Positions 1,262-56,664 of a stretch of DNA of 64,000 nt are shown one piece after another (positions within the stretch are counted from its first letter, which is position 1; every line of letters starts with the position of its first letter). The position numbers were made by a program, and so were the translations under genes. The notes below the pieces were generated by a model. It was not told the DNA's origin and did no database searches. It worked only from the letters and a program-made list of their open reading frames with translations. The stretch is from Marisa cornuarietis (Eukaryota > Mollusca > Gastropoda > Architaenioglossa > Ampullariidae). The stretch covers positions 1,431,001-1,495,000 of the forward strand of contig SMMW01000042.1 of NCBI GenBank assembly GCA_004794655.1, read 5' to 3'.

Positions 1262-3805
<2,544 letters not shown>

Positions 3806-23904: not shown

Positions 23905-24612
23905 TCCAACTGCGAAAATAAACTTCACACCTTGCACTTCCTTTTGCGCTCACGCACACCAAGGTGAAAATAAACATCACACCTTGTCCACCAAGGAGAA
24001 AATAAACATCACACCTTGCACACCCACGTGAAAATAAACATCACACCTTGCACTTTCTTTTGAGCTCACGTACACCAAGGTGAAAATAAACATCCCACCT
24101 TGTACACCAAGGAGAAAATAAACATCACACCTTGCACACCCACATGAAAATAAAACATCACACCTTGCACACCCACGTGAAAATAAACATCACACCTTGA
24201 ACATCTAGGTGAAAATAAACATCACACCTTGCACTTCCTTTTGAGCTCACGCACACCAAGGTGAAAATAAACATCACACCTTGTACACCAAGGAGAAAAT
24301 AAACATCACACCTTTCACATCCACATGAAAATAAACATCACACCTTGAACATCCAGGTGAAAATAAACATCCCACCTTGCACACCCAGGTGAAAATAAAC
24401 ATTACACCTTGCACACCCACGTGAAAATAAACATCACACCTTGAACATCTAGGTGAAAATAAACATCACACCTTGCACTTCCTTTTGAGCTCACGCACAC
24501 CAAGGTGAAAATAAACATCACACCTTGCACACCCACATGAAAATAAACATCACACCTTGAACATCTAGGTAAAAATAATAAACATCACACCTTGCACACC
24601 CAGGTGAAAATG
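23905..24612. repeat. ~33-bp minisatellite with higher-order structure
   Basis: About 20 copies of a unit with the core gtgaaaataaacatcacacc followed by ttgcacacccac. Every few units a longer variant carries cttccttttgagctcacgca (starting near 23936, 24052, 24232 and 24477), so units are organised into blocks of uneven length. Length variation breaks frames, so there is no long ORF. Confidence 0.92.
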
Positions 24613-34810: not shown

Positions 34811-35753
34811 AGTAGCTCAGGTACTCATGTAACAGCTGTGTGAACTGGGCAAGTACCTGTAGTAGGTCAGGTACTCATGTAACAGCTGTGTGAACTGGGG
34901 CAAGTACCTGTAGTAGGTCAGGTACTCATGTAACAGCTGTGTGAACTGGGGCAAGTACCTGTAGTAGGTCAGGTACTCATGTAACAGCTGTGTGAACTGG
35001 GGCAAGTACCTGTAGTAGGTCAGGTACTCGTGTAACAGCTGTGTGAACTGGGGCAAGTACCTGTAGTAGGTCAGGTACTCGTTTAACAGCTGTGTGAACT
35101 GGGCAAGTACCTGTAGTAGGTCAGGTACTCATGTAACAGCTGTGTGAACTGGGGCAAGTACCTGTAGTAGGTCAGGTACTCGTGTAACAGCTATGTGAAC
35201 TGGGGCAAGTACCTATAGTAGCTCAGGTACTCATGTAACAGCTGTGTGAACTGGGGCAAGTACCTGTAGTAGGTCAGGTACTCGTGTAACACCTATGTGA
35301 ACTGAGTCAAATAGCTCAGGTGCTCGTGTAACAGCTGTGTGAACTGGGGCAAGTACCTGTAGTAGCTCAGGTACTCGTGTAACAGCTGTGTGAACTGAGG
35401 CAAGTACCTGTAGCAGGTCAGGTACTCGTGTAACAGCTGTGTGAACTGAGGCAAGTACCTGTGGCAGGTCAGGTACTCGTGTAACAGCTGTGTGAACTGG
35501 GGCAAGTACCTGTAGTAGGTCAGGTACTCATGTAACAGCTGTGTGAACTGGGGCAAGTACCTGTAGTAGCTCAGGTACTCGTGTAACAGCTGTGTGAACT
35601 GAGGCAAGTACCTGTAGTAGCTCAGGTATTCGTGTAACAGCTGTGTGAACTGAGGCAAGTAGCTCAGGTACTCGTGTAACAGCTGTGTGAAGTGGGTCAA
35701 GTACCTGAGGTCAGATACTCGTGTAACAGCTGTGTGAACTGGGGCAAGTAACT
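34811..35753. repeat. 51-bp minisatellite
   Basis: About 18 tandem copies of a 51-bp unit containing caggtactcatgtaacagct and ggggcaagtacctgtagtag. The unit is 17 codons, so the minus strand reads as a 17-residue repeat (QFTQLLHEYLTYYRY-like). A shortened unit near 35305 and another near 35655 break the register. Related outlier copies lie at 31937-32043. Confidence 0.95.
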
Positions 35754-37602
35754 GTACGTAGCAAGTAGCGCTGCGTCACGCGGCTGTCGAACAGACGTCC
35801 ATACACTTGGGTGCCGGTGCTCTACCACTCGATTCTGCCCTCTACTAAGATCCAGACAATGGACTAGCAAATGAAAATGCGAACCAAAGAGACAAGACTA
35901 TCAGAAGCATCTTTCCTACAAAAGTCACACAAAGAATGAGGAAGCACCAAAGTGAATTGGGCAAATAACTATAAAGTCATACGAAGACCTCCTGACTACA
36001 GTGAAAATAAACTGAACTGGTGTTGGTACATCTCATGATTATCATGACTGCAATGAACAGAGCAGGAAAGAGAAGAAGAGGCAGACAACAGAATGTTCAG
36101 ACAACTTCCAAGAAGGGAGACAAACAGATGGCTGATCGTCAACTCTTTGTTTTAGAACCCCGCTCAAGTTCTCGATGCCAGGTGTTCAAGGCTGGTCTCA
36201 TTTCCTCTTGCTTTGGAGGTTCCAGGTTAAGGCCTGTCTAGAGATTTGTCTGCCAGACTTGCGAACTGTGTGGCAAGTCTTTGTGGTCTTTCTTATTTCA
36301 CAGAAAGCTCTTGCACATTTGAAGATCATTTCTGGCGCTACTGTATAGCCAACAAATCTGAAGAATATTTTCTAAGCAAGTTTTCATTTTCATTAGATAA
36401 GAAAACGACTAAATGTAAATGCTAAATTGTATATTACTAAACTCTGCACAAATTGAATCAATGCATCCAAATTGATGAGCTCGTCAATCACCAGAGCAGA
36501 CGACCATGACGTATGAGAAGACTTTCATACATGAATGAAAAACATGGTGATTTTTGGTAATAAAAGTACTGTGAATAAGTAATATTAACAAAGTGAACCC
36601 CAACTTTCATTTCAAACAAAGTCATTTTATTGAGTTTGTCAAACCTAGAACTAACTTTGATGGGGAGTTTGTGTACATCCTGTGCAAAGATCCTGAACGA
36701 GTTTCGCCTGCACACAATATATGTTTCGAAGGACAGTCATCTTTCTCGACAACATTTTCGGCACTCAATGGCAAGGACTCTTTCATGTGTGACCACCGTG
36801 GAGGTATGAAGCTTGGCGGCCGGCGGTGCCTTAATGTTTAATTATCTGACCCCGCACTTAATGCGGCCGGCATCACAAGTGTCTGGAGTAGCGCTTCTAG
36901 GCACTTGACTACCACAGAGGTCTGTGCTGTCCTCGTCTATTACTCTACTCCTAAACATTACAATTCTAGTACAAGGTTTCGGTTCACTGTAGTTAAGCCC
37001 TTACATGAAATACACAGACGCCATTAAAATAAGGACAGCTATGTGAGCAAGACAGATGCAATCTTTCCACGTACCGCCTCTCCCGTTTATCGTTCGTTTA
37101 GCGCCCGCACACATATATATATATATATAGAAATAAATGTATCTTCGGTTACACGAAACAGAGATAGAGACTGCTTTAATGAAGTGTGATTTTTCAAACG
37201 TTTTCTGTACGTCAACTTTTTGCAGTTAACTTTTTTAGGATTTGTCTCTTGTCCTTATCTCACGTGACCAGGTGCTCATTTTGACACATCATTTAATGGC
37301 AAGGGGCACATATATTGATAGTTTTTCATCTGTGCAAGGGGCGCAGATAGTTATCTGCCTATGAATGGTGCAAAACGTGGTCAGAGCGGCAATAACGATA
37401 ATGGTAGTTGTGTCGAAACATTTTTGAATGTTAACTGTGCCCTTTGTGCTTTTAATGAGGAAAGGTAGTAATACTGGATTTGTTTTATAACTAATATGTT
37501 GATTAACTAAAATTCTGTACATTTTAAGCTTTTATACAAATAAAACGAAAAGACGAGTGTACTTTAAAGATAAAACCTAGAAAACTCTAGAAGGTGTTGT
37601 GA
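35754..37602. other. Anonymous sequence with one possible exon-like stretch
   Basis: No family recognised. The plus strand at 36593-36803 reads as a non-repetitive protein-like frame and ends at a fair donor (gag|gtatga), but no good acceptor is visible upstream. A (TA)n run lies at 37113-37129. Confidence 0.35.
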
Positions 37603-38165: not shown

Positions 38166-41100
38166 CAAGGACATGCATTCAGTTGGGAGACCTACTGAAA
38201 GTGGTGCACAATGTCCCCCCACTGGCAGCCTTCACCACTGCTGCGTCTCATCATGTTCCCCATCCCCTTCTCTACGACTCGTCAAGTTAAGGGGGAGAGA
38301 GATAGAGAGAACTAGAATGATTGATCTTTGCGGCTGATTAGCTGAAATCTTAAACTGTAAAAATGGACGAGAAAACAAGTACGGTGTATTTTCAGGGACG
38401 AAGAAAGTGTTCAGTTAAAAATGAAAAACGAGCTAGCACTCAGTGACGACCAGCTGGCGCCTTCTGTGTATTTGTGTGAATCAAATCGATGTCTTTGGGA
38501 CTCTCGCATCTTGACTACAAAAGTAGGACGGCTCAGCACACTACTTTTGGGAGAATCCATCTTTTTGTTCGTCGGCCATAGGTGTGAGAAAACAAAGAAC
38601 TGAAACGTCGATCCGTTGACACAAAACCAGCTCATTGCTGATTCTGAACGAACCTCCGACTGTCTGAACCACTCACTTGATTGAGACACGGCTTATGAAA
38701 ACATACTTCTAGAGCAACATTACATGCACCTCTGTTCACAATGTCTGCCAGAGGCACTGTACACTGTCGGGGGCAGGCTGTCTACCACTGTCGACCTGTG
38801 GTCGGTATAGTCCGGCGAGCCTGGTGAATGGAGTTCACGCTTCCTAGACCTAAAATACTAGAACCCCAATGTATTATATAGCATGTATGAATGCAACATC
38901 ATGGGAACAGCTTGTGTGACCGACCGTGTGAATGACATTCTTACAACTACTGGAACAGTCACATGCACCATCACCAAGCTTTCGCCCCCCAACCCAACTA
39001 TCTTTTCACCACCCAAAACTGTGACCACCTTCTTTCCCTCCAAGTTTGGTTGGTTTTGGTGTGGTGCTGTTCTCAATAAAACTGCCAGTAGAGGCAGTGC
39101 TTGAGCCAACAGATGTCTGTTCAGACGTGAAATTGGACTTAAAGTAAGGCTATGAGTAAAGGAGAAGCTGGTCAGGCCAGACCCAGCTGCCAAGTCTCTG
39201 GCAAGATGGCAAGAAGGCAGGTGATACCCTGACAACCAAACGAGACATCTCGTACTAGTCGCTGTGGCTGTACTAGGCAGGCGTGAAGCTTGATGGGTGG
39301 GACATCTCTGATGAGGCGGGAGGTCGCCCTGACGTACTCTACTTTATGTAAAGGCCCCGGGTTCCTGGAGCCCAGCACAGGGTCTACAGACATAATGAGG
39401 GCAGGCCTTATTTCAAGTGTTGATATTGTCGATTGTGCCTTTGAATGGCGAAACTTGTGGTGGTCAGTATTAGTACATCGTAAACTCTTTTCTCCCAGGG
39501 TCCACCTGTTTCTGGCGAAGATTGTGGTGGTGATTACGAGTTACTTCTGACTGTGGGATCATTACAAGTACTGCTTACTGTGGTGAGCATTAAGAGTCAC
39601 TGCTTACTGTGGTGAGCATTATTAGTACTGCTTACTGTGGTGAGCATTAAGAGTCACTGCTTACTGTGGTGATCGGTATTAGTGCTGCTTACTGTAGTAA
39701 TCATTATTAGTACCTCTTCCTCTTTCTTTCTGAGTGGTGAACAATCCTGGTGATCTAAGCCCTGACGTTCGCTAGGAAGCTGTTTGTGTTTAATGTGTAA
39801 TTTATATAATTCTGCTGTGGCCTTTGTCTCCAGGGTTAGGATTTTACTGTTAGGACATTGTATAATTCTTTTTGTTTGTTGTTGTTTTTTTCATTTTATT
39901 ATTTAGAGTTGTAAACGTACAATTATCATAGCTCTTTGAAGTACTAATCTATTACTAGTGCCATTGTAGTTTATTGTGCCTTTAATTTTCAATTTTAAAA
40001 ATTAATTTAATACAGATATTATATAATCGTACTAATGAGAATGTTTGCCCCTTGACGGAGAGATACTCAAAACAAAGTGTTTGTGTTTTATGGTACCATC
40101 CTCTGCCCAGGAAGAACTCTCAGTTTTACGCAGATTTACTTCCACTAGTTTCCAAGATTATCTTCATGTCACAAACTAATTAACACTTTAGAGTGAAGTA
40201 CACAAAGAATTCCGCCATATTTTTTATTCCTCCACAAGCAAGACCTCCGCACATCTTTCTTGATTTCTCCAGAAGCATCAAGTTAAAGACGTTCTCTTTC
40301 TCGCTTGGTCTATAAAGTCAGAAGTCAGCTCGGGACGAGACTGTCCTCCACTTCTGTCCAGTCACATCTTCTCACACGATGTGTCCTTGGTCTGAACTTT
40401 CAGCTTCTTCAACAAACTGAGTCACACCACAATCGGATAGTATGTAACAAATGGACCTTTGTATATATATATATATAGTAAGTGATGTAATAAAACAATA
40501 ATATTTAACATGATGCAATTTCTAAGTAAAAATAGCGATACAAATGATATACAAACGTAAAGTTCTAAATACAAATGGCGTACAAACGCGAAAAATGGAA
40601 GTGTCAGTACAAATGAAACACAAACACGTGAAGGGGAAGTGTCAATATAATTTAGCTTCGTCTCCTCTCACGAAAGATGTTGACACAAAACATCCAGACA
40701 AAAGAAGGAGCAAAAAATAAAAACAGCACAAATTATTCTAATGCTTTTAGTTTTTCCGCGAAATAAATGTTTATCTTACAAGGTCAGGCACATTAGTTAT
40801 ACTGCTACCTGTGAGAAAACAAGTCTTAAGAGAGTACTTGCATGTCGCCCTCTTACTAACACCATTTAATGCAAGTCATTGAAACATCGGTTACTATCCG
40901 CAATGCTCCGCAGCTTTTGTGATACTGTCCCAGCGATAGGAAACCTTTCCTATGTGTCAAACTTAGGTGCAATTTGTTGTACTCATTCTTTACCTTCTAA
41001 AGGGAGGTTCACTACAATAAGAATCACCATGCTCTTTCTGTAAGTGCCATTTGTACAATAAACTTTGTACCAACTCGATATGGTGGTTCAAGCCCATTGG

Positions 41101-41366: not shown

Positions 41367-41517
41367 TTAAATGACCAGAGTTTCGTTGACAAATCTGTCC
41401 AGTGAGCCGTTAGATGCACGCATGATGAATGCGGTGACGATGGCCCCGCCAAACATGCAGGGAACTGCCAGCAGGCTGAGCCACACCAGAAGCCCCACTC
41501 CCGAGATGCCGTGTCCA
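41367..41517 (-). CDS. YeeE-like gene, exon j (last coding exon)
   Basis: 151 bp including the TAA, entered in phase 2 after a strong acceptor tttctttatctctgcag. It encodes GHGISGVGLLVWLSLLAVPC, then MFGGAIVTAFIM and a short polar tail ending ETLVI. GHGISG completes the second signature motif begun in exon i. Confidence 0.92.
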
Positions 41518-44500
41518 CTGCAGAGATAAAGAAAACAGTTATTCGGGTCACGCACATCTAAAACACCGATTTCTTTGTTTTTCTAGGATAATTATGTATC
41601 CCTTGTTAATAAAAAGAGGATTTTTTATCGATGAAATATTTCTTTCTTTGTTCAGGCTTTCTATACTCACTGAATAAGGAACTAAATACCTCTCCACTCT
41701 CACTCCTCACTGAATAAGTAACCTAAATACTTCTCCACTCTCACCATGGCTGCTTATTTCTTTTTGCCGGTTAGGGTCATATTTATTAAAATTTTTGCAT
41801 TTCTCGCTAATTGCTGACCGTTCAATCTGAATATTCTGTTATTGAGTAATCTCTTTTCCTCCTGCCCCCCTCCGTATTAAGTAAACACCCCCCTCCCTGT
41901 ATTCAGTCTTTGATCATAAATGTTTAGAAATTCAGAAGCCACTCTTAAAGGACAACAGGAGCGCTCAGCGAATATCGCTGGAAATAAAGAACAACGTATC
42001 ACAAAAACATATTCCTGTGGTATTTTATGACAAAGAGGCATGAAAGATTTTATATTAATATTTTTCTGTTAAGCACACCTGGATTTGTCGAGAAAACAGG
42101 AAGTGACGAAACGGAAGAACTTCTAAAAATAGCCACGTCTGCACTAGCTGAAGTGGAAGAAAAAAGATGCAATCCTCGGTAAAAGAAAACTGACCAGGAC
42201 ACATTGCGCTGTGACTGAATGTTCTCTTCAACACTCGGAGTTTGTACTCATATAGGAAATCCTAAAGATAATGGCAGCAAACGCCAGTAGATTAACTGTG
42301 TTCAGAGATGTATATATACAGGTCTCTGCTTTGTTCAAACGTGCGTGCGAACTTCGTCCCCACACCGCACTCAAGAATTTGCTCAAAACATTTCAAAATC
42401 GACTGTTATTCAGTCACTTATACAGTACAAGCAAGTCTTGGACTTTCAGTAAAACGAAGAAATCTTATTCCTACAGCAGTGCTTACTATACAAAAGCATG
42501 AGATGTTAAAACCAACTACGACTGCTGGTAGATCAAGCACCAGATATGCAACATCGACGGTTTCTACACCAGATCTGGTCTACAAGTAACATCGGGACAC
42601 AGTCACAAACACATCATCATCAGTCGTATCTTTATTTAGCATAATGCTAAAAACAACTGACAGTGTGAGGACACCATTGATGTGCGTGATCGAAACAGCT
42701 AAAAAAAAGTAAAAAAAAGAATTGGGGGTGATAAACATATTATAACGGGAACACGTGGCACTACCAGTAAGTAAATAGAAATTTTTCATGCAACAACTAA
42801 ATGAAGAAGAAATAAGTTTTTACATCGATAAACATGTTTCAAACCATCATTATATTTTTAATTGTAAAAAAAATCCTTAGCAGCAGTCAGTTGTAACTAT
42901 TGTTTCCCATTAAATTTTGATCTGATTGACTTACCAGTCTGTTGAATGAATTCCCTTTGGACTATTTAATTATTTTTTAACTTCTTTCGAAGCTTCTAAA
43001 TAAAGTTCCAATCTGTAGGGCTGTATTCCAAATTCAGTTGTTTCATTTTTTGGGCCAAAAAAATCGCTTCTTGAACACGACAGCCTGAGCGATGTTTCTT
43101 CATTTGACTTGAAGACATGCAAATTCTGTTACAAATACTTCGCGCGTAAGAGAACCTTCAATACAGGAAAGTATTTTTCACGCCTTCCTATTTGCAGCAC
43201 GGACCTCCATTCACTGATAAGTGTCTCTAATTCGTTGCCTCTTTGCTCTATCATAGGAGTGACCAATGGTAACAAACCCTAAAAACGAAGGGCTTTCGAT
43301 CGCTTCCGTTTTCTGTCAAAATGGCGGATATTTCTATAACATAGTAGAAATATGAGAAGTGAGTAATTAAGCTTGTCTGTCATCATAACCTCGTTAAAGA
43401 AGATTGATTGCAAAATAAACAGTATTTTCTGTAAAATGTATTCTGTTTGTTTATAGAAAAAGTATTTAGATTTTTCAAAGATTTTATAATATAAAAACAT
43501 CGTCACAACAGATGCTATTGACTTGTTTTACCACTAACAATTAGAAACATTGTTTTTGATTTTTTGGAAACAATTGTATAGATTGATTTATTACGAAAAC
43601 AAAACATCTACTTTAAGAATTTATTTAAGGTAATCATACAAAGAACCGGAACCACCAGGCCTGTCTAAAGGAGAGCCGAGACTTACACCGGACACGAACC
43701 TGAGTCGCTTATCCAGTAATGAAGGTCCGTGGTTGCAGGTGAGAATGCCGATGTTTGAAGGCTTATATCTCTAAAACTAAGCAGAATTATGTACTCATGT
43801 TTTTGGAATTATTATTTTAAAACGAACTTAACTCGATCATAAAGAAATAATGTTGCACTCGGTTTGTCCTTTAAAGTCCATGTGTCTCACTTTTTATACG
43901 CTCATGGTAATAGATTATGTGAGAGGAAAATACAAGAACTGACCAAAAATTAGAAGAATCCCAATGGAATGATGTAGATAAAACATGAAAGTCAATTTTC
44001 ATTTACCTCGTGCATCCTGCGGCCAGCCGCGCACCTAACAGCATGAGGACCCCACCACACAGCGCCTCAAAAACACCCACACCTTGAGCTGAAGCCAGAG
44101 AGTGCGACGCAAGTGACGACGACAAGCCGCCCAAAATGGCCCCCGAGACATAAAATACCTGCAACAATATTACAGCTCGCTCAGTACATGAAATACCTGC
44201 ACGTCACGTGTGTGTATCCCCATGCTTGTTTGACCCGCTTGTTTGATAACCCTTGCACGTAGTCACAAAGGTCCGACAAAAGTTTCAAATAATGTGGCCC
44301 TGAAAATATCGAGCAGTATGTATTAAGAAAAATAGCATCCGAACTTTCAGATTTGGGTGTGTCCTGACTACAGTCAGACAACAATCCTCACAGCTGACTG
44401 CCCTCCGTCACAGGTAAGGGAGGTAATCCACACTTATTCCAAATACAAGAATCATCACGACTTGCCACAAACATGTAGATGATAAGTCTACATACATACA

Positions 44501-47500
44501 TACATACATACATACATACATACATACATGCATACATTCCACTGGGCGAGAGCCGCTTGATAGGGGAGGTAAGCGCGCAGCACTAGCGCTCCAGAAACAG
44601 AAGATGCTGAAGTTTGACTGTCCAGTGAGTGGTCCGACGGGCAGGTTTAATCCGAGTCACCGACACAAAATTGCCGGCCGCTTAATGCCAATAAGCCGAA
44701 TATTCCAAGGGCCAGTTACACATTTATAAATTTAATCACTTGAAGGTCTTAAATCTATTTAGATAAATCAGTTTTGTAGCAGCAGTGCTCAACACAATTT
44801 TAGAACTTGTTTAAAACTTAAATTGTTTTAGAACTATTTAAGCCAGAATTTTCTTCCCGTCAGCACATTTTTCGTAAGCAGTGTGAGCTGAAACGTTTGT
44901 GCAACGCTTCGGACAATTTGAACAAATTCTAAATTTGCTTCTTATAACAGTTTGAAGTTTATGTAAACAAGCTGTGCGACTAGCCCCAGGACTGTAGCTT
45001 GGAGAGTAAGACTAGTGAACGTGATCCCCCCCCCCCCCAGCGGAATCCTTGTCTCGCCAGAGACTGGCTTTAAATTGGTGGAGCACGTGCCGCTCGCATA
45101 ACGCTCAACAGCATAGCAGAGAGGACGACTCGCTCACTACACGATTGGTATACACTTTCATACACAGTCTGTAAAGGGGTATTTTGTCCAACAGTCAGTT
45201 CCTAATAAAGTGTCTGTACACTGTGCGTAATAAACATCGACTATTTCTCTTCCTAGCGTCCTGCTGAAAACGTTTTCTTATTAATGGCTAGTGACGAAGT
45301 AGTTTATCAAATATCTGTTATGATTCACCCAGGGTCACAGAATTTCCCCCCCTCTAGTGTTAGACTGTTTTTCCTTCTCAAATGATACAGTTAGATGCAC
45401 GTTCTTCTTGCATTTACTACACTCCTCCCAACTGCTTTATATTTGTCTGGCTTCTTTCACGCGGACAAACGAACTTCTGACTGAAAATATCCCAGGATTA
45501 GTTCCCCCCCCCCCCGTGCTTGATCAACCCTGGTGGTAGGCCGGAGACATTCAATACTGCATTCCCTTCCTACGATGATCTAAAATTACCCTCGGGGGCG
45601 GATCATACTGTTATATTTTAGAATCCTCCCTGGGGTTAAATCTCGATTAGGATGGAGTATTCTGGAATATCTTGACGTTCCTCGTCCATCACACCTTCAC
45701 AATTTCAGGAAAGTATAGCTTTGAGGGGGTAAGGGTTGTGTTTTTCCTATAAATTTAGTAGTGTCCCTCCTCTTCATAATCTTAGGGAAATTTTGACTTT
45801 TGTACCTACCAAATTAAAGCCAAAAAGCCAAAAGCAAACATCCCGGTCTCAGTATACTGGATCTATTCCAGGGTGGGATATGGTAGCGGTGTTCCGTACA
45901 CATCATACTCAACGACAAGGCACAGATTTTGCGCTATTCCATAGCTGACCACTCATGCTGAGACTGGCTGGCTCTTACTCGACTAATGAAGGTAATATAC
46001 AGAGTATATCTGGTTGATGTTTAGGACAGTGCAGTGTGTTTAAAGTGTCTTAAACATGTTTCGGCTAACAGCTTACTCACTTGCCACCAGTTTCCCACAC
46101 CAGTTCGTCGCACTGCCAAGTACTGGAACTTTCTTTGGAGGTTAGACGTGACCACCCACTGTGATATTACAGTTACGTAGCTGGAACTGCTTCCTATAGT
46201 GTCTTTTAGCACCAGCACCATTGGCACTTGAAGGGCGCCAACTATCATTCCTAAACAACAAAGTTAATATTGAAGACATGCACCGTTACAGCTGCACACG
46301 CGGTTGACAGATTGTTTGTTACAGTGACCACAGATATTTACAAGACATGCTGGAAAGAATTGTATGCGATGTCGACAATCAGTTCGATAGAGTGAGGGAT
46401 AACCAGCCAGAGTAAAAAGTCAAATCATACCACCATCTTGACTATATTTATTCTGGGATTATACCTTTGAAAGTTAATATCTGTTTATATATTTGCATTA
46501 TTTGTTTATGTGGCTACATACGATCATGTCACACCCTTATATATCACTATAAATAAGTTTTTGTTAACACCCTGCCTGTTACATGGATTGATTGGTATTT
46601 CTATGCAATATTTTTTTGTGTATTCTTTCATTCCTGTAAGAATGTTCAGTGACCGAGTTAGCTTTGTCTTTCATGCCCTCCCACACCCTCCCCCCCCCCC
46701 CGCACACACAAACATTTTTGTTTCGCTTATGAAACGCCTCCATTCGAACGACCTTACTGCCCCCGCCCTAGATCGCCTGACTTTTATATATAACCTGAAT
46801 GTTTTCAGACCATATTATGGGTTCTCGTCAGACAGGGATGTGGAACACACATGCACACGCACACACGCACAAGCACAGACTTGCAAGCGCACAGACACAA
46901 TGTGGCGACTTCCTGGAGCCTTGGACTTGAGCTGCCGGCGAAGGGTTAGCGGTCAAGGCCAGAGTGACCGGAAGCGGCCACATGACAATAAAGGACGTGC
47001 ATGGGCGAGAGGTTCTAGAACATTCGATGGGGGAGGGTATAATATAAGTAGTCCAGGTTTTCTTGAAATTATTAACATGTCCACATTGTCTGTTGGTGTG
47101 GGTCTCTGCTTCCCCTCACAACCATGGAATATTCATTCAAACAACTTCTTCCAACTATCAGCCACCTAATTCCTCTACTTTTCTTTTTTTTCTCTTTTAA
47201 CATGTCGGAATACATTTTTTCTAAGAAAATACTTACAGAATGATCTCTACTGTAGGTAAAACAAATATAGTTAAAGTCACTATATGATCTGAAAAGCTTT
47301 GGCTTTACATGAAGGGCGGAAGTTTGAAGATTTTTTAATTAGATAAAGATCTTCGCTTGAATTTTTTTTAAAGAGTAATCAAGTTTTATTGGCACTGGAA
47401 ATGAGAGGAGAAAGTCAGGGAACCTGCTTTTATATTTGTTAGAAATTCCTAAATAATCAGTACCAAAGTACTTGACATGTATGCATATGTCAAGATATGC

Positions 47501-50500
47501 GGGTTACCTCCAACAGACGGTGGCCAGGCAATCGTCTCCGCTATGTTGTAACTGAGCTTTTCAGGGTGCTGTAAAATTACAATTCACCAGTAGTTGTCTT
47601 TAGTTGCTTATGGTTTTTATAACATGCATAATTAAATACCTTGCTTACACAAAATAATTATTTATTCCTAAGTTTGCAGAAAAAACAACCCTTAGAAAAG
47701 TAGATAGCTATGACCAACAAAATAAGGGACAGAACCTATGTTGCTGGTTGGTTTCTTGTATTACTTCCCCTATGCTCTCTAGTTAACAGTCAGCCGTTGT
47801 AAGAGTCACATACCAAACAAAAATTATGGTTTTCTTGTCATGCAATTGTTTAGTACACATAATAAACCCGCAGAGATTAAAATATGCATGCAAGATCTTC
47901 TTCTATTCTATTCGTGTATATATATATATATATATAGCAACTCAATTTAAAGCCCTTACCCTGAACGGATTTTTTTTTAAGTAAAGAAAGCAACAAGTCA
48001 TATTGTACTCCTTTTACCTTTACTAGTTCCTGTCGGTAATCTTACACTTTTAATGAGCAGAGCATGTGGTATGAATCCTTATGGCGTGTGGTAGGCGCGG
48101 ATAAATGCTTACCTCTAGGTTCTCTTTATACGGCAGGAAGAGCTCCATAAGTAGTACAGTAACAGCCAGTAAGCAGCAAGTAGGCAGTGCTAACAGGGCG
48201 AATGGCTTGTTCAGCTTTTTGTGTACTCTTTCAAACATAAACACACACACGCACGCATACGCACGCACACACAAAACACGCGCACGCACGCACACAATAC
48301 TTTATAGATTTCTAAAAACGCGCGCGCGCGCGCACACACACACACACACCTCGACTATTACACGCAAGTGCGCTCGTGTATATTCGCATTCGTACGTCTG
48401 GCCCACTTTAATTTCATACATTTATTTATAAATGTACACGTCTGCATATACACCACACATTATAAAAGGGTTTATAGGGAGTGCAGCTATCCATAAATGT
48501 TTGATAAATGTTTGTATTTATTGTTTCCTTGTCGTGCCATCTGAACATACTACTACACAGCTAACACTCGTAACTTACTGCAAACCTGGTGTAACCTAGT
48601 GTAAACTGTTATCACCTACTGTAAGCCTGCTGTAAACTTCTGTAAACCTGCGGTTATCAACTGTAACCCTACTATTGGCTACTACCACCCTGTGCAACAC
48701 ACTGCATCACTGGAAAGGCGTGTGCATATTCTTGCCTGCTAATGTAAGAGTGCTATAACATATTTTCTCACTACCGACACTATAGTAGACTGTCGGCACA
48801 TTCTGCTTACTGGTGATGGATGAAAGGATTTTTGGGTTGTGTGAGCCGCTCGACTGTTGAAGCCACAAGGCCGTATAGCAAGGCACCCAGCAGACAACCC
48901 AGCAGCGTGAAGACTGCAGACAGAACTCAATCATTATCTTTCAAAGATGAAGAAAATAAAGCCTTTTCTTTCATGGACAATTAAAGAAACTCAATGATTT
49001 TACTCAAGGATAGAGAAATCAATCATTTTCTTTCAAAGAGAAATTCATTGTCTTTTAAAGAGGAATTCAATCATTTAATTCAAAGATGAAAATCTGTTTC
49101 GAGACATTGACACTAAGAAGAAACCACTGTGTTTTTGTAAACTAAACGACAAATGAATAATCGAAGAGGAGGGAGAGGGCTGACGGTATGATAATTTATA
49201 TTGTTAGTGCAGTATTCAGATTTTGTCTCTTTTGTATGTTTTATATCTTCTGTAAACATGCATTAGAAAAAAGGCTTAACAAATTAAAGTTTTCTTAGTT
49301 TTGTATACAGTACCTCCAACAATAAACAGAATGAATGAATAGCTCTGATGTCTCACTCACTGGAATTAGGAACCCAGGCTCCAACCTGCGCTAGGACCAT
49401 GCCGGGACACTGTGAACAACAGAAACAGGATGATGGTAAGTACAACACAGGATGATGGCAAGTACAGAAACAGGATGATGGTAAGTACAGACACAGGATG
49501 ATGGTAAGTACAGACACAGGATGATGGCAAGTACAGACACAGGATGATGGCAAGTACAGACACAGGATGATGGTAAGTACAGACACAGGATGATGGTAAG
49601 TACAGACACAGGATGATGGTAAGTACAGACACAGGATGATGGCAAGTACAGACACAGGATGATGGTAAGTACAGACACAGGATGATGGCAAGTACAGACA
49701 CAGGATGATGGCAAGTACAGACCAGGACTGAAGACTAGTGACGAGCTCTGTTAACAGTTAAAATTTAACGACCGCAGACGAACAATACAACTCACTGCGC
49801 CCGAGAGTGTCATTCCCACTCCTAGAAGGAATGGGCCCAGGCAGGAAGTGAGTATCCCCTTCTTCTTCAGACAGCACAGGTATTCCTCCTCTGCTAGCTC
49901 CAGACGGCTTTTGCAGATGGGTATTAGCGACATGACCCCTAGGACAAGGTGACCTGACATTCACACAAGCACGCACACAAAACACACGCAAACGCACGTA
50001 AGGACATATGTTATTAACATAGGAAACCTATATAACCACGACATTGCATCACATCTGTAAATGATGTTACCTAATGTAAACCTGCTGTTACCTACAGTAA
50101 ACCTGGTATATACTGGGAGGACGTAGAAAGAAACCACGTTTAATAATTGAAGTTATTTAAACGCCTGGCATTGTCAGACCAAAACAGTGATATGCATGTC
50201 ACTTCGCCGCCATGTTGATATGTGTCTTCGTTTTTTTCTTCTTCTTCTTCTTCTTCTTCTATCTTCTTCTTCTTTTATCTTCGTCTTCATCATCATCAAT
50301 TCTTTAGACTTGACTGGTCGTGAGAGAACCCCTTACGATCTTATCCCTCACTTTCCTCACATTTCTCTCCGTGCTCTGCTATTCTACTGAATGATAAGCG
50401 ATGTCAGTCTTGAATATTGTCTTTACAATTTTTCTTCTGCCTCCTTTTTCTTCTACTCTGTACCGATCCTAGAAATTTGTCATGATGATGTTACGGTGGT

Positions 50501-52267
50501 GTGTTGCCCAGTCATGATGATGTTAAAGACCTACCCTACTGGTAATGCTCAAAAGATTCCTTTCGAATTACTTATTAATACCTGGAACATGAAATCGCAA
50601 GGAGAAACACGAATCTCGAGAAATTAAATCAAAACGATTTCTTCGCCTGTTCAAATCTGAGATCTGAATCCGTGTGCGACTTCAGTACTGGGGGACCATC
50701 GCTGACCACAGTATGACTGATACAAGTTGCCCAGAAAATGTGAATGTCAAGCTCAGATATTGAAACTATTGTGTCGTTGTTGAATGCACAAGGAAACATA
50801 GTGACCGAATAAGGGCTCATACATTCCCAAAGGATTCACTGTTGAGAAGACAATGGAATAACTTTCTTTGTGTGTCAAGCTGACTTTACTGCGCCTACAC
50901 AGTACTCTGTCGTCTGAGAACTCCACTTTGCTCCTAAATGTTAGCCAGTAATATACACGATGAAGAATCAAGAGAGTTTTGAGATACCACAAAATCGTCT
51001 TCTTCCAAAAGGTCCTCCTTGCCTGTACACAGAAGCATGTTTTTTCTCGTCCAACAATACAGAGTAGCTGCGCAAACACCTGAGGTTATCTCGATAAATG
51101 TACTTCAAATACAACTATTCAAGCCACAGTATTATAGTTGTGATCAGCGACACAAAATGTTGTTAATAACATGCACACGATAAATAATAAGGAATATCTG
51201 CAACATCATTCCCCAAAAAATATATCTCCGCTTTTCCATTTTTTAATTAGTACGGGTGAAAGACTCTTTTTCTTACTGTTATTCACACCAACGATCGTGT
51301 GAGCAGTTATGTCCACATAAACGTGCAAATCTGTCCCAGTGGTAAATTTTCCCATTCGAGGCTTTTGTGACAGTACATAGGTAAACGAACAAACATCAAT
51401 TGTAATGTTCACCTGAAGGATGCAAAATTTGACGAACATCAACGATGCTCACCATGTGGTATTGTAAAGTTGTTCTTCGTCGTCTGCTGCCTGAGCATAT
51501 GGTGTTTGGGATTATGAACCCTCATAAATCTCATTTTTAAACAAGCAAAGTGTAATGCCTTCAAGGCTAGAGAACAGCATTTTACACTCGTCTTCGCTAC
51601 TAGAGCAGGATAAATGAAGATCGTCTGATGAACCCAGTGTCTTGCTACATCTTCTGGTCATCACATGCTGGGTGGCACGTCTTTTGTGACTTCACTCGCT
51701 CTCCCTGAGCAGGTGCTGGATGTTGCAGGACTTGCTGACTATAAGTGCAAATCTCCAACTTTGAAATTAGATAATAAATTTACCGCTATGTTTCAGGCTC
51801 TGACATTTACAGAATTTATTTTTATTATCTCTGCCTACCAGAATCTGTTTATAACTCGGACCAGTCGGGTAGGTCTCTAAGGTGGTCTGTTGTAGAGTCA
51901 CGATGATGTTACGGTGGTGTGATGGAGAGTCCACGTTTTTGCCTAATCCTTCCAATCTTACTGGGGATGTGACAGACACGAAGAGTCTTTCTATAACATC
52001 TCATTTCCATGAGATGTATTCGTCTGCAAATCCGCTGCCAAGGTCCAGTCCTCACACACTTATATCAAGATGGAGATGACGATGAAGCGCATTAACCTTA
52101 TTTTGGAATGGACAGTAATGTCGCCAATTTATCATCCACTACAGGTTATTTGATCGCAACGCTTTCTTGTCCTACTCTAAAGACCACGTCTGGCCGGGTT
52201 TCAGCCTTTGTATTAAATACCATTTGTCTAAAGCTGCAGACTGTCCAGTTTGTCACCTTTGACCTCG

Positions 52268-52326
<59 letters not shown>

Positions 52327-55300
52327 GTGAAGATTTGTATAGCGCATATTCACACTCATAGAGAGCATGCTCTTAGCGCTTAAAACGAGGAAGAGACGTG
52401 GACTAAGTAGACACAGAACAAAGGGGACGAAAGAAAACGACAGTACTGACGAAACAGAAAACAAAAGGCATCAAGTAACAGGAACAGAGAAATATAGTCA
52501 TTCTGCGAGAAAGATGGGTAAAGTAGCAAGAGGGGAGGGGGCGGGGTTAAGACGGACGAGCATTGTGCGGACTGTGTTAGGAGAAATGCTCAAGGAAGAG
52601 GTGCGTTTTCAGTGCAGATTTGAAAGATTCAGTTGTAGGAAGGTGGCGGATATGGAAAGGAAGAGAGTTCCATTGTTTTGCAGCACAGTAGCCAAAAGTC
52701 CTGTGACCATATGTTGTTGTTCTGGTGACAGGAACAGTTAGGATACGGTCGTCAGACGAAGAGCGTAGTTGTCTGGACGGAGAGTAAGGGATGAGAAGTT
52801 CAGAGAAATAGTCAGGACAGGAGCCAGCAAAGAAATTAAAACACAGCACAGACAGTTTGTACTGAATGCGAGAACGGACGGGTAGCCAGTGTAGAAAACG
52901 AAGGAGAGGAGTGACATGGTCCCGTTTCCTTGCTCTAAGCACCAGACGCGCAGCAGAGTTCTGTACTCTCTGGAGTCTCTGAATGAGGTAGTCAGGGCAG
53001 CCTGCCAGCAAGGAGTTGCAGTAGTCAAGTCGAGAAAGAACAAACGCACAGACAAGAGTGTTGGTAGCGCGTGTAGAGAGAAAGTGACGGATAGCACTGA
53101 TCTTACGGAGCTCATAATAGGCAGACCGACAGACAGCTGCTACATGTCTATCGAGTGTCATGTCATCAGTGACAATAAATCCCAGATTCCTAACAGATGC
53201 CGTGAAGGTGATGTTGCTGTCGCCCACCTTGATGTGATTGGGCAGACTGACGAGTGAAGGTTGATGTCTTCTTCTATGGCACAAGAGGGCTTCCGTTTTA
53301 TCATCATTTAGTTTAAGCTTGTTTTTTAGCATCCAGCCCTTGACATCACTGATACAAGCTTCTATAGAGCTAATAGCAGAGTAAGACTCAGCCGGCGGAG
53401 TGGAACAGTAAAGCTGGTGTCATCAGCATAGGATTGATGAGAAACCTGGTGAGACCGGATGCATGATGAAAGGGGCTTAGTATACAGGATGAACAGAACT
53501 GGGCCAAGTACTGAGCCTTGGGGAACACCACAGAAAAGTGAAGCAGGGCGAGATGTCTGACCATCAACTGACACAGTCTGGGTCCTATCAGTGAGATAGG
53601 AGTTGAACCATGAGAGGGCAGGTCCAGAAATCCCGTAGAGGGTGTGAAGTCTGTGAAGAAGCAGAGAGTGGTCTATAGTGTCAAATGCAGCAGACAGGTC
53701 CAGTAGGGTTAATGGAGAGACATCACCACTGTCAAGAGCAGATAATATGTCTGTTGTCACTTTAATAAGAGTGGTCTCGGTGCTGTGGAAAGGTCTATAC
53801 GCCGACTGAGCTTGTGGGATAAGATGGTGCTCTTGTAAGTAGGCCCAGAGCTGTGTCAAAACTATTTTCTCTATGATCTTAGAGAGAAAAGACAAGTTGG
53901 AAACTGGACGGTAGTTGTTCAGGACATTGACGTCAAGCGTGGATTTCTTTAGAAGTGGCCTCACCACCGCATTTTTGAACAAAGATGGGAAAACACCTGA
54001 CGACAGGCTGACATTTACAATATTAGTGATGGCAGGAAGTAGAGTATCTAGGCACTCGAGCAGAAGGCTTGTGGGCATCGGATCTAACTCGCAAGTTGTT
54101 GGTTTAGCTTTTAGGATAACCGCTTTCACATCGGTCTCAGAGACTGGTAGGAACTTGGACATGGAGCATCCTGGGAGGACATCACAGGAGATGCTGTCAA
54201 GCACTGACACAGAGTCTAAAGATGATCGAATGTCCAATATCTTGCTGGTGAAATAATCACTAAAAACTTGCGGCAGCAGTGAAGCAGGGTAGGCAGTAGG
54301 CAGTGGTGTTGCTGTCTTAGATCCAGTCATTTGAGAGCAGATGGCAAAAAGCTTTTTGGAGGAGGTGCAGTTAATTATTTGGCCCTGAAGATATGATGCT
54401 TTAGCCTCATAAATGCATTTTGCAACGCTTCGCTTTGCGGCATTATAAATTTCTTTGTGGATGGCGAGTCCAGTCTTCCGCCAAACAAGTTCAGCTCGCC
54501 GGCGCGTGCGCTTCAGGTCACGGAGTTCGACACGGATCTGTGAATGCCAAGGCGCACATTTAGACTGGCGCATCAGACGTCGAGACACAGGGGCATGGTC
54601 ATCAACTACTCGACGCAAAACACAGTCAAGTTGCTCGGCAGAGGGTGGTTGGAGGAGCGCCATCTGCAGCTGTGCTTTGAATGCTAGTCTATCCACATTT
54701 TGTAATGACCGAGTGGGTCTGAAAACTGGCGCCGATGATGGGCATTTGCGATCCAGTTCGATTAGTACAGAGTAGTGGTCAGATGAGAGATCGTGGGAAA
54801 CATCAACTGACTGGACTAAGTGGTCATCAGGTCGATGTATGACCCAGTCCAGGATGTGATCTCTTTTGTGAGTTGGTTGCGACACGGACTGGAGAAAACG
54901 AAAGGTGTGCAACATTTCGGACAGTTTGACAGTGTCAGGGTGAGAACTGTTGTCGAAGTGTACATTAACATCTCCGAGGAGAATTGCGGGTCCAATTAGT
55001 GCATTGCTATAATCCAAGAGATCATGGAATTCTGAGAAAAATGTAGAGGCTGTAAGTTTGTTCCTGGGGCTAGGAGGAGGTCTGTAGATGCAGAGCAGGT
55101 GCATCGAGCAATGAGGAGCCGAAGAGGAGACTTGTACAAATTCAAAAGACGTGTGAGGGAACGATACGGCAGTAGTAAAAGACAGGTACTTGGCAAGTGA
55201 TATCTGGGCTCAATCCGTGGGTGTTGATGCTTTGTCGAGGCGTTCGAACAACTCTCTTGGCAACTAACTGGTCAGTACCAGAGGTCAACTGCAAGCTGGT

Positions 55301-56374
55301 GATTGACCTGTTGCCTCTGTTCTCTCTAGTGCAGACCCGTTTGCTATTTTTTCTGCTACGACAGTCGTAATTTCCTTTTCCTAGGACGTCAGATCTGCTT
55401 AATTTTGATGCTTTATGTATGACATGGGTCGGAGATTGATTTTCCTTGCTCTGTTTCTTACGAGGATGTCGGGCTTCATCAAGTGGCGATTTGACCGTGA
55501 TATCAAGATATATATACTGCATCAGATACTGCATACACGCCTTTAAGTCAATGAAGGGCTTACGACAAAAAGTGTCTGTAGCCAAACCAGGTTTTTCAAT
55601 AGCTATAACTCGCACGGTATTGTTTGCAACCTTCTGGTAATGAAAAGGTCTGCAGGCCAGCTATGTGATATCAGTAAACTATGAGAGTACAGCAATACTT
55701 TGTATCAGTGGGTAATCTTTGGATCTCTACGAAATTATCTCTTTCCTGATTTTGTATTGTCTCTTGGGTTATACGAGTCCCATATAATTTTATAAAGTAA
55801 AGAAAAGGGTTGCAGGTAGATGAATACTGTTGTATTTTCAAAAGTGCTGGCTCTACCACCACCAAAGAAACAAATGGAAGCAAAATTTCATTCCAGTCAG
55901 TTTCACCATAGTTAACCATACCTTACACTGCTTACTGTTATGGTATCATCAGAGATGGCATACCTGTAGCAACTGCCGTCAAAAACATTTTCAACATAAT
56001 CCATCGCTCGAATACCATTTGCAATCTGATGGATTTCGGCTCAAACACTGAAAAATACCAAACGTTATATCACATCAATTTACAGATGTAAACTTCTTTA
56101 CGCACGCACCTAGTCACAGGCATCCCAAACCCCACCCTACCCACTCACACAAAAGTACGTGCAAACACCTCACCACAGTCACACAACCCTATGTTTGCGG
56201 GAACGAGTTAATGAATATTGCGATGTACACTATTCTGAACATGTAAATGAAAGTTGTTACACAGGCTGCGATTAATTTCCTTTCACCAGTGACCATAGAA
56301 ATGATAGCTATGACAACGACAACGAGGTCGTCGACAATGATTACAACAGCGACGACGACGACGACGACGACGAC

Positions 56375-56439
<65 letters not shown>

Positions 56440-56664
56440 CCTCTGCTTTTCTCTAGGGCCACGCCAAATGCCCATCCTAGCACCAATGACATGGCAAGTT
56501 GGATGACCTCCCTCGCAGACACGCATCTAGATTTGTCGGACGGTGTCAACTCGGCCCCTTCCTTGTCGTTAAAGTCAGTTTTGTCTACGTCTGTGGCATG
56601 TTGAACACTTGAAGTGGAGCCGTAGTCAGATAAGGGAGTTACGGTGTTGCTGTGGTTACTTGTC
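41367..56664 (-). CDS. YeeE/YedE-family (Sulf_transp) membrane protein, ten exons, 5' end missing
   Basis: Exons from 5' to 3' are 56664-56441, 56047-55964, 49953-49796, 49409-49361, 48913-48811, 48227-48113, 47568-47508, 46250-46081, 44158-44007 and 41517-41367. They sum to 1267 bases, and with GT-AG boundaries and matching phases (1,1,0,1,2,0,1,0,2) give 421 residues plus TAA. The chain has a hydrophilic acidic N-terminal part (1-50) and roughly nine hydrophobic segments. Family marks: a LGWAFGVALEKSRVFEP block (~62-78), IRLQM with MLKMFLTA (81-99), GVGMTLSGACPGMVLAQVG (~145-164, Cys156) and GARLAAGCTSGHGISG (~363-378, Cys370). Bacterial relatives (~350 residues; TsuA) import thiosulfate, with such cysteines proposed to pass the ion through the membrane. 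The substrate here is unknown. The first acceptor is in phase 2, so at least one upstream coding exon is missing. Several introns hold transposons or satellites, none of which interrupts an exon. Confidence 0.88.
41668..41745. repeat. ~39-bp tandem duplication
   Basis: Two copies of a unit with cactgaataag and ctctccactctcac in the intron between exons i and j. Confidence 0.85.
43198..43731. mobile_element. 534-bp MITE-like element, copy 2
   Basis: Inverted relative to copy 1 at 18248-18779 and colinear with it from end to end. It lies in the intron between exons i and j. The terminal bases cacggacc and ggtccgtg match those of copy 1. The 7 bases outside (tttgcag on the left, gttgcag on the right) agree at 6 of 7, consistent with a target-site duplication. 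Confidence 0.87.
44007..44158 (-). CDS. YeeE-like gene, exon i
   Basis: 152 bp, phase 0 in (acceptor attgttgcag), phase 2 out (cacgag|gtaaat). Encodes VFYVSGAILGGLSSSLAS, a short loop, then FEALCGGVLMLLGARLAAGC and T. The GARLAAGCTSG motif (its Ser completed across the splice) carries the second signature cysteine, Cys370. Confidence 0.92.
44489..44536. repeat. (TACA)n microsatellite
   Basis: About 12 CATA/TACA tetranucleotide units in the intron between exons h and i. Confidence 0.95.
46081..46250 (-). CDS. YeeE-like gene, exon h
   Basis: 170 bp, phase 1 in (acceptor ttgttgtttag), phase 0 out (ggcaa|gtgagt). Encodes MIVGALQVPMVLVLKDTIGS, then SSSYVTVISQWVV, a basic loop and a terminal NWWQ. 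The GALQ-x-P followed by D-x-x-GSSSSYVTV pattern is characteristic of the second half of YeeE/YedE proteins. Confidence 0.9.
47508..47568 (-). CDS. YeeE-like gene, exon g
   Basis: 61 bp, phase 0 in (acceptor attttacag), phase 1 out (gttggag|gtaacc). Encodes HPEKLSYNIAETIAWPPSVG, ending in the W-x-P-x-x-x-G turn that opens the next membrane helix. Confidence 0.85.
47917..47937. repeat. (TA)n run in an intron
   Basis: About ten TA units. Confidence 0.9.
48113..48227 (-). CDS. YeeE-like gene, exon f
   Basis: 115 bp, phase 2 in, phase 0 out at ctagag|gtaagc. Encodes VHKKLNKPFALLALPTCCLL and a continued hydrophobic run to MELFLPYKENLE. The acceptor, tatgtttgaaag, is the weakest in the gene and was chosen because it restores the frame; a TG/CG-alternating tract stands where a pyrimidine tract would be. 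Confidence 0.8.
48316..48350. repeat. (CG)n(CA)n alternating tract in an intron
   Basis: Seven CG units followed by about eight CA units. With the CA/CG-rich stretch at 48240-48297 it fills the intron upstream (on the gene strand) of exon f. Confidence 0.95.
48811..48913 (-). CDS. YeeE-like gene, exon e
   Basis: 103 bp, phase 1 in (acceptor ttctgtctgcag), phase 2 out (cacca|gtaagc). Encodes IFTLLGCLLGALLYGLVAS, a membrane helix directly after the CPG loop as in the family, then a polar segment TVERLTQPKNPFIHH. Confidence 0.88.
49361..49409 (-). CDS. YeeE-like gene, exon d (49-bp microexon)
   Basis: Phase 0 in (acceptor gttgttcacag), phase 1 out (tcca|gtgagt). The 16 codons read CPGMVLAQVGAWVPNS, completing the GACPGMVLAQ motif that marks the first half of the YeeE/YedE fold and carrying its cysteine (Cys156). 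Confidence 0.9.
49421..49728. repeat. 23-bp minisatellite filling an intron
   Basis: About 13 copies of the unit acaggatgatggtaagtaca followed by gac, occupying most of the 386-bp intron between exons c and d. A unit length of 23 makes all frames cycle open. On the plus strand each unit contains ggtaagt, a perfect splice-donor consensus, but the gene lies on the other strand. Confidence 0.95.
49796..49953 (-). CDS. YeeE-like gene, exon c
   Basis: 158 bp, entered in phase 1 after atgtcag and left in phase 0 at gca|gtgagt. Residues 103-155: GHLVLGVMSLIPI (membrane), a charged cytosolic-type loop with LELAEEEYLCCLKKK, then ILTSCLGPFLLGVGMTLSGA, which leads straight into the CPG motif of the next exon. 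Confidence 0.88.
50231..50275. repeat. (TTC)n microsatellite
   Basis: About 14 imperfect CTT/TTC units inside the large intron. Confidence 0.9.
50770..51030 (+). pseudogene. Decayed THAP-type zinc-finger domain
   Basis: In the large intron, antisense to the YeeE-like gene. The plus strand reads CVVVEC (the C-x2-4-C pair), then a TFPKD-S-LLRRQW block, the hallmark of THAP domains. After a frameshift comes PTQYSVV, a TGA stop (50915-50917) exactly where the third zinc-binding Cys is expected, and ELHFAPKC with the His ligand. A LLPKGPPCL stretch near 51010-51030 resembles the usual post-domain L-x-P-x-A-x-P-T segment. THAP domains are common in P-element-like transposases, so it is probably an element remnant. 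Confidence 0.65.
52577..53332 (-). pseudogene. LINE polyprotein, C-terminal part after the frameshift
   Basis: 251 codons from the first Met, colinear with the frame above. It contains LKLNDDKTEALL, a VRNLGFIVTDDMTLDRHV block, VLSRLDYCNSLLAG, VQNSAARLVL, HVTPLLRFLHWLPV, FNFFAGSCPDYFSELL and FGYCAAKQWNSLPFHIRHLP, ending in a stop before the 3' UTR. The same domain is found in fragments at 18.8, 20.9 and 28.6 kb. Confidence 0.92.
53362..55190 (-). pseudogene. LINE polyprotein, endonuclease C-half and reverse transcriptase
   Basis: An open frame of about 600 codons (580 from the first Met at 55104) covers the later endonuclease motifs and the polymerase core, including the D in LSAAFDTIDH and the YADD catalytic pair. 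It stops at 53362 because of a single-base frameshift near 53411-53416. The domain continues in another frame at 53332-52577. Few other lesions are visible, so the copy is fairly young. Without the front of the endonuclease it could not mobilise itself. Confidence 0.9.
55964..56047 (-). CDS. YeeE-like gene, exon b
   Basis: 84 bp, phase 1 to phase 1, between acceptor gtatttttcag and donor acag|gtatgc. Residues 75-103: VFEPKSIRLQM, then VFERW and MLKMFLTAVAT. The VFEP-x-x-IR-x-QM followed by MLKMFL pattern is typical of YeeE/YedE proteins between their first and second helices. Confidence 0.88.
56350..56439. repeat. (GAC)n(GAT)n microsatellite abutting a splice donor
   Basis: About eight GAC units pass into about 22 GAT units on the plus strand. 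Read on the gene strand it is (ATC)n beginning two bases inside the intron after exon a. Confidence 0.97.
56441..56664 (-). CDS. YeeE-like gene, exon a (first exon found)
   Basis: 224 bp, residues 1-74, entered in phase 2 after acceptor tttcag and left in phase 1. It encodes a Ser/Thr/Asp-rich hydrophilic stretch, then REVIQLAMSLVLGWAFGVAL, the first membrane helix of the family, and EKSR. The donor is agcagag|gtcatc, a poor match to consensus because an (ATC)n microsatellite starts at intron position +3. Confidence 0.82.

Follow-up and report, generated by a model that had tools for sequence, protein, structure and literature searches.

Sulfur transporters of the YeeE/YedE family and a snail member

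The YeeE protein is described in passages of PMC11073785 as holding three cysteines that form a relay ending at YeeD, with R28, R98, E101 and E261 as contacts to YeeD, and the abstract of that paper places YeeE-like proteins in some eukaryotes. Passages of PMC11582611 state that the Spirochaeta thermophila protein (StYeeE) cannot do without Cys91 and Cys293, and that PmpB and PmpA resemble the N-terminal and C-terminal halves, respectively, of a long YeeE, with one cysteine each and the central helix lying outside PmpAB. For YedE1E2, which is 59% identical to PmpA and PmpB, passages of PMC10812762 report that import of zero-valent sulfur was sped up and export was not, and that the two cysteines are essential; a section heading there gives the homologous YedE3 as not likely involved. 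Here we describe an animal member of this family, encoded on the minus strand, from 56664 to 41367, of a 64,000-nucleotide stretch of the gastropod Marisa cornuarietis (contig SMMW01000042.1, positions 1,431,001 to 1,495,000; hereafter the window, to which all coordinates refer). The explanation that we prefer, with a probability of roughly 0.7, is that this is a working YeeE/YedE (PF04143) transporter gene, descended from an early alphaproteobacterial PmpA-PmpB pair that fused once as PmpB-PmpA and was inherited vertically in animals, and that its product would pass reduced sulfur by way of two cysteines.

The gene model was re-derived from the raw sequence of the window, and the ten coding exons of 49-224 bp, their coordinates and the protein motifs given in an initial annotation of this DNA came out exactly. 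The nine introns range from 386 to 6010 bp, are GT-AG in 9/9 cases and have compatible phases; the joined exons comprise 421 codons followed by TAA, with no stop or indel inside. The first exon contains no ATG. The best database match, the Pomacea canaliculata protein LOC112558218 (P0001, 422 residues), is a methionine followed by the 421 snail residues, with 399 of 422 positions identical (95%) and no indel, and the two genes are orthologues. Since P0001 has this additional methionine and exon 1 lacks an ATG, a phase-2 intron presumably interrupts the start codon, with AT coming from an upstream exon and G from base 56664. The model is weakest at intron 1, whose donor, GTCATC, lies on the margin of an ATC microsatellite. 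This donor would fit a decayed gene or pseudogene; the uninterrupted 421 codons, the 399 of 422 residues that match the P. canaliculata model and the retention of both cysteines make such decay highly improbable. A chance chain of exons is ruled out by the indel-free match to P0001, and contamination, which the initial annotation had also dismissed for this intron-rich animal gene, by the introns together with the long contig. The coding features, all on the minus strand, are as follows.

56441..56664, minus: exon 1 (coding part), 224 bp; N-terminal tail and first helix, opening with the G of the inferred split ATG; acceptor cag before 56664, donor GTCATC
55964..56047, minus: exon 2, 84 bp; encodes VFEP...MLKMFLTAVATG
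49796..49953, minus: exon 3, 158 bp; terminates at GA ahead of CPGM
49361..49409, minus: exon 4, 49 bp; encodes CPGMVLAQVGAWVPNS and carries Cys157 (aligned with StYeeE Cys91)
48811..48913, minus: exon 5, 103 bp; from the rebuilt model and a protein-versus-genome search
48113..48227, minus: exon 6, 115 bp; central helix, with the end of the PmpB-like half
47508..47568, minus: exon 7, 61 bp; first codon 246, phase 0, near the PmpB-like/PmpA-like join
46081..46250, minus: exon 8, 170 bp; within the PmpA-like half
44007..44158, minus: exon 9, 152 bp; encodes GARLAAGCT and carries Cys371 (aligned with StYeeE Cys293)
41367..41517, minus: exon 10, 151 bp; SGHGISG through the stop TAA (41369-41367)

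The protein matches PF04143 (Sulf_transp, YeeE/YedE) over residues 73-399 with 125.8 bits against a cut-off of 27 (E = 3.5e-36, well outside chance expectation), so that the family named in the initial annotation holds, and its predicted fold is that of YeeE. Residue numbers are those of the 422-residue protein, and the pairing of positions comes from an alignment to 6LEO that scores weakly (13.7 and 10.7 bits locally) and in which Cys91, Cys293 and Cys22 of StYeeE correspond to Cys157, Cys371 and Phe77. Cys157 and Cys371 are cysteine in all 54 rows of the family alignment, and position 77 is never cysteine (F in 33 rows, Y in 13, T in 6, S in 1 and a gap in 1); both cysteines are therefore present and the C22 position is not Cys, as in PmpA/PmpB (YedE1E2). 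The YeeD contacts R28, R98, E101 and E261, read from the same alignment by hand and least surely for E261, fall on Arg83, Gln164, Ala167 and His341. Only R28 is matched, and the other three contacts are not kept in the snail protein; across the 54 rows, position 83 is R in 46, position 164 is Q in 52, position 167 is never E and position 341 is E in 3.

Prokaryotic relatives and the origin of the fused chain

A 17-row alignment of eukaryotic proteins, scanned once against a collection of genomes from 84,980 species, yielded at least 594 pattern matches and 172 relatives, of which the best 80 loci were examined. The closest prokaryotic relatives found among these are alphaproteobacterial two-gene PmpA-PmpB pairs, not TsuA. 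The two best loci, from Devosia equisanguinis (L001) and from a genome labelled Alphaproteobacteria bacterium (L002), are both in metagenome-assembled genomes and both in Alphaproteobacteria, and their flanks look bacterial by eye, with cytochrome c biogenesis, ABC and antiporter genes and NtrY/NtrX-like genes. The PmpA-like gene precedes the PmpB-like gene in all 67 loci that hold both halves (12 others have only A and one only B), whereas the snail chain runs in the reverse order, PmpB-like and then PmpA-like. Compared with P0001 by blastp, the two halves of L002 score 80.5 and 87.8 bits and those of L001 73.2 and 89.7, and the halves of two short PmpAB pairs reach 28.1 and 42.0, and 37.4 and 47.8 bits.

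These scores bear on a different origin, in which the snail protein would be a true TsuA/YeeE thiosulfate transporter derived from the long bacterial form, in line with the automatic NCBI name 'thiosulfate transporter TsuA-like' of some homologues. We consider this unlikely. Escherichia coli TsuA and the long bacterial protein L022 score only 28.5 and 30.8 bits, against 163-168 for the alphaproteobacterial pairs; the two TsuA models, NF052577 and NF041049, are missed by a wide margin (38.2 of 400 and 30.7 of 645 bits); and the third cysteine and three of the four YeeD contacts are not present. The TusA family (PF01206) has no match in the host genome, with 11 of 14 controls positive, which says little either way since the PF04143 search of the genome likewise missed this split gene. 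The models for the YedE selenium transporter (TIGR04112 and NF033796; 19.3 of 200 and 18.2 of 350 bits) and for DUF6691 (PF20398; 13.1 bits, cut-off 27) are missed as well. Thus the initial description 'thiosulfate-transporter-like' was right as to the PF04143 family and goes too far towards TsuA, as the snail protein is closer to the PmpA/PmpB (YedE1E2) side of the family.

The alphaproteobacterial subtype was found in 10 of 289 genomes of the class of L002, L002 itself included, the other nine being 41-64% identical to it; a phylum sample of 398 genomes gave six matches at E 1e-15, of which two were strong and already in the class sample and four were 35-38% identical. A lies upstream of B in 11/11 such loci, refetches of L001 and L002 among them. 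In addition, a profile of the N-terminal half (A2), which included the two alphaproteobacterial sequences and was run at a threshold of E 1e-10, retrieved 2401 proteins, and among the 120 listed there are six bacterial rows with taxon names (Ferrovibrio, Rhodospirillales and four Hyphomicrobiaceae), all of which we take to be Alphaproteobacteria. In two loci, from Bradyrhizobiaceae (L022:4754-5863) and Bradyrhizobium (L077:4421-5524), a long family protein lies just upstream of a PmpA-PmpB pair, so that both forms are adjacent.

The central helix is accounted for by the same pairs. Alphaproteobacterial PmpB proteins, once trimmed, are 188-233 residues long, and a simple hydropathy count places a hydrophobic segment near the C-terminal end in 11/11 examined, with five hydrophobic segments in eight and four in three; two short PmpB proteins have four. 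The eukaryotic central helix, residues 216-237, is where the C-terminal end of the large PmpB falls in a profile alignment, and a phase-0 intron between codons 245 and 246 lies near the PmpB-like/PmpA-like join. Because the central helix coincides with the end of the large PmpB, the eukaryotic protein beyond its N-terminal tail is accounted for as large PmpB plus PmpA, joined near this intron. A passage of PMC11582611 proposes that the central helix was acquired when the two genes fused. The split-to-fused history suggested here would offer an intermediate for YeeE evolution, in that alphaproteobacterial PmpB already has a helix at the place of the central helix.

In all trees the sampled eukaryotes form a single clade. 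A quick tree of 90 rows, for which 32 bacterial pairs were hand-picked out of 67, places 49 eukaryotic or fused rows on one side of a branch (support 98), adjoining eight alphaproteobacterial rows (91). A careful tree of 75 rows, which left out 11 divergent bacterial pairs and four metagenomic proteins (15 of those 90 rows), supports the eukaryotes at 100/97 and their grouping with the alphaproteobacterial pairs at 96/94. With nine alphaproteobacterial pairs added, and with six bacterial rows that have the N-terminal half only and P0088, P0115, P0079 and P0085 left out (two of these four had stood out in the 75-row tree by their long end branches), a careful tree of 74 rows gives 100/99 and 98/97, and the alphaproteobacterial pairs form no clade of their own. 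The 40 fused proteins in a 59-row quick tree together form a single clade (100), which is nested among the alphaproteobacterial pairs at supports of 82 and 88. A bacterial fused ancestor was sought among 15 unnamed fused metagenomic proteins in this last tree. All of them group within the eukaryote-containing clade, P0116 at its basal polytomy, so that there is no unambiguous bacterial fusion among them.

Several points weigh against the explanation preferred here. Approximately unbiased (AU) tests do not reject trees that join the eukaryotes to the long forms (p 0.116) or to the other pairs (p 0.219), and the nine added pairs were sought in Alphaproteobacteria only, with two of the six N-half rows bearing no taxon name. 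The alphaproteobacterial neighbourhoods readable here (the flanks of L001 and L002 by eye, and four other loci) are not obvious sulfur operons: of ten flanking open reading frames (ORFs) at the four other loci, eight have Pfam matches (MMPL, TetR, radical SAM, TauD family, HlyD, GST, integrase and polymerase III) and two have none, with nothing decisive among them. Finally, the substrate is not readable from the sequence; TsuA carries thiosulfate, and YedE1E2 is reported to import zero-valent sulfur. An alphaproteobacterial origin is therefore favoured, not proven, because the AU tests leave rivals and the added pairs come from a search of Alphaproteobacteria alone. The 'old bacterial acquisition' of the initial annotation is made sharper by the trees, as the origin of a gene that is spread across eukaryotes, not confined to animals, and closest to alphaproteobacterial two-gene pairs, and is held back by the same AU tests.

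Distribution and copy number

The distribution was taken from two protein searches, covering the best 120 of 150 and the best 120 of 157 rows. The matches listed include molluscs, annelids (Owenia, Capitella, Dimorphilus, Paralvinella, Ridgeia and Lamellibrachia), Lingula and Watersipora, echinoderms (sea stars, urchins, crinoids, a brittle star and a sea cucumber), the hemichordates Ptychodera and Glandiceps, and the amphioxus Branchiostoma belcheri. Also among them are the sponge Corticium, the choanoflagellate Salpingoeca, the fungus Paraphysoderma, and protists that include Guillardia, Goniomonas, Palpitomonas, the foraminifer Ammonia, Triparma, diatoms, the thraustochytrid Hondaea and Chrysophaeum. 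P0109 is presumably from Ephydatia, to judge from the prefix of its gene identifier Em0019g1131a. No vertebrate, arthropod, nematode or cnidarian is named among the matches listed, which suggests, without proving it, that the transporter was lost in these groups.

The gene is thus spread through eukaryotes, rather than being an acquisition peculiar to snails. A recent bacterial transfer into snails or molluscs, for a family best known from bacteria, is so improbable that we set it aside: the gene has ten exons, its homologues extend from molluscs and annelids to echinoderms, hemichordates, amphioxus, a sponge, a choanoflagellate and protists, and the 90-, 75- and 74-row trees, which group the snail protein with Littorina, Haliotis and Lottia, rule it out. 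Possible, at somewhat below even odds, is an early horizontal spread between eukaryotes after one fusion, in place of presence in the last common eukaryotic ancestor. The patchy distribution among the matches listed would fit such spread, as would the choanoflagellate Salpingoeca, which groups with stramenopiles and cryptophytes and not with animals in the same three trees; however, resolution is poor among the deep branches of eukaryotes, and the same pattern would result from vertical descent with losses. Such spread concerns the history only and would be compatible with our preferred explanation of function.

Descent from the mitochondrial ancestor is put forward only as a hypothesis. In its full form, which we regard as doubtful, the transporter would be left over from the sulfur metabolism of that ancestor: a PmpA-PmpB pair of Alphaproteobacteria would have been joined in reverse order, around or before the time of the last common eukaryotic ancestor. 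The fused protein would to this day carry sulfane sulfur or thiosulfate in molluscs, echinoderms, amphioxus and sponges, and vertebrates, arthropods and nematodes would have lost it. If true, some animal lineages would possess a transporter dedicated to reduced sulfur and others would not. A mitochondrial presequence is not supported: by residue count only, the N-terminal 57 residues of P0001 include five basic and nine acidic ones.

In the host genome (a 534,278,870-base assembly of 572 contigs), the P0001 query, run up to E = 10, finds ten places, all on the contig of the window and inside this gene, the weakest being the 49-bp exon (E = 0.05). P0051, which represents a second animal paralogue type, finds seven places, six in this gene and one elsewhere that is weak (E = 2.19). 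Since both queries point to this gene, there is one copy in the genome as far as detected; a second paralogue was rejected, the only off-gene match of P0051 being the one at E = 2.19. Two forms of the transporter, A and B, occur in Lingula (P0026/P0037), Littorina (P0003/P0050), Babylonia (P0005/P0051) and Potamilus (P0009/P0053), and protein queries of the Marisa genome turned up the A form alone.

The surroundings of the exons are repetitive. Intron 2 holds, at 52580-55104 on the minus strand and thus on the strand of the gene, an element resembling a long interspersed nuclear element, with a 580-residue ORF that has endonuclease and reverse transcriptase domains and an adjoining 251-residue ORF in a different frame and without a Pfam match. 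A minisatellite at 49419-49727 (23-bp unit, 13.5 copies) occupies most of the 386-bp intron 3, just ahead of the Cys157 exon. Other long minisatellites lie at 844-1261, 3804-4481, 4944-5945, 23914-24611 and 34811-35761, with units of 18, 28, 27 and 51 bp and mixed, and some overlap long repetitive ORFs. Downstream of the gene, an ORF at 38858-39235 (minus strand) has, by eye, LPSCHLARDLAAG in common with the odd C-terminal tail of P0002, a second P. canaliculata gene model, which may for this reason extend into downstream sequence.

Proposed function and comparison with described transporters

Our preferred explanation would proceed as follows. An alphaproteobacterial two-gene transporter, PmpA then PmpB, would have entered eukaryotes early, its two genes would have fused once, as PmpB-PmpA, and animals would have inherited the fused gene vertically, with duplication and losses. 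In the protein, two homologous helix bundles would shape a central path, along which Cys371 and then Cys157 may hand on an anion of reduced sulfur, either thiosulfate or sulfane sulfur/persulfide, from one side of the membrane to the other via transient S-H...S contacts. This relay is modelled on the one proposed for Cys293 and Cys91 of StYeeE, minus the third cysteine and minus docking of a TusA-like YeeD. TsuB-coupled uptake is argued against because the third cysteine and three YeeD contacts are gone; the snail protein most likely transports either thiosulfate or sulfane sulfur, with no TsuB as partner, and the two substrates seem about equally likely.

Sulfide detoxification in animals produces persulfide, sulfite and thiosulfate, and a likely use of the transporter would be to carry reduced sulfur made or met during this process; a sulfide or thiosulfate role of the snail protein is our inference. 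In P0081, a 719-residue metagenomic protein and the only one of ten long members scanned with a second domain above cut-off, a BLH phosphatase-like domain (31.1 bits, cut-off 26.1) is joined to the transporter. A passage of PMC10812762 places yedE1E2 upstream of blh, which encodes a persulfide dioxygenase, in Agrobacterium, and the fusion in P0081 may provide a weak link between the transporter and sulfide detoxification.

It was already known that the snail gene has an annotated orthologue and that some homologues bear TsuA-like names. New, on present comparisons, are the alphaproteobacterial PmpA-PmpB pairs as apparent closest prokaryotic relatives and the reversed order of the eukaryotic chain; among the open-licence full texts searched, no paper on animal members of the family or on a PmpB-PmpA origin was found. 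The gene is a widespread, well conserved candidate transporter of invertebrates which, in the records examined, bears only automatic names that may mislead on substrate and partner, and its two cysteines make the mechanism open to direct test.

Among known systems, the P. canaliculata orthologue, of equal length and the same family, carries the database name 'uncharacterized protein', and the animal 'TsuA-like' homologues belong to this family too. SoxT of sulfur oxidizers comprises long proteins of the family, alike by description in passages of PMC11582611 rather than by alignment here, with three conserved cysteines reported there as essential. StYeeE and E. coli TsuA have in common with it the fold (predicted here), the single chain and two of the three relay cysteines, but the snail protein has Phe77 in place of the third cysteine, lacks three of the four YeeD contacts and stays below the TsuA model cut-offs. 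The bacterial PmpA/PmpB, or YedE1/YedE2, are closest in sequence and, like the snail protein, have two cysteines, essential as reported in passages of PMC10812762 and PMC11582611, and no C22 counterpart; they differ in being separate proteins, encoded A first and B second, whereas the snail has B then A in a single chain.
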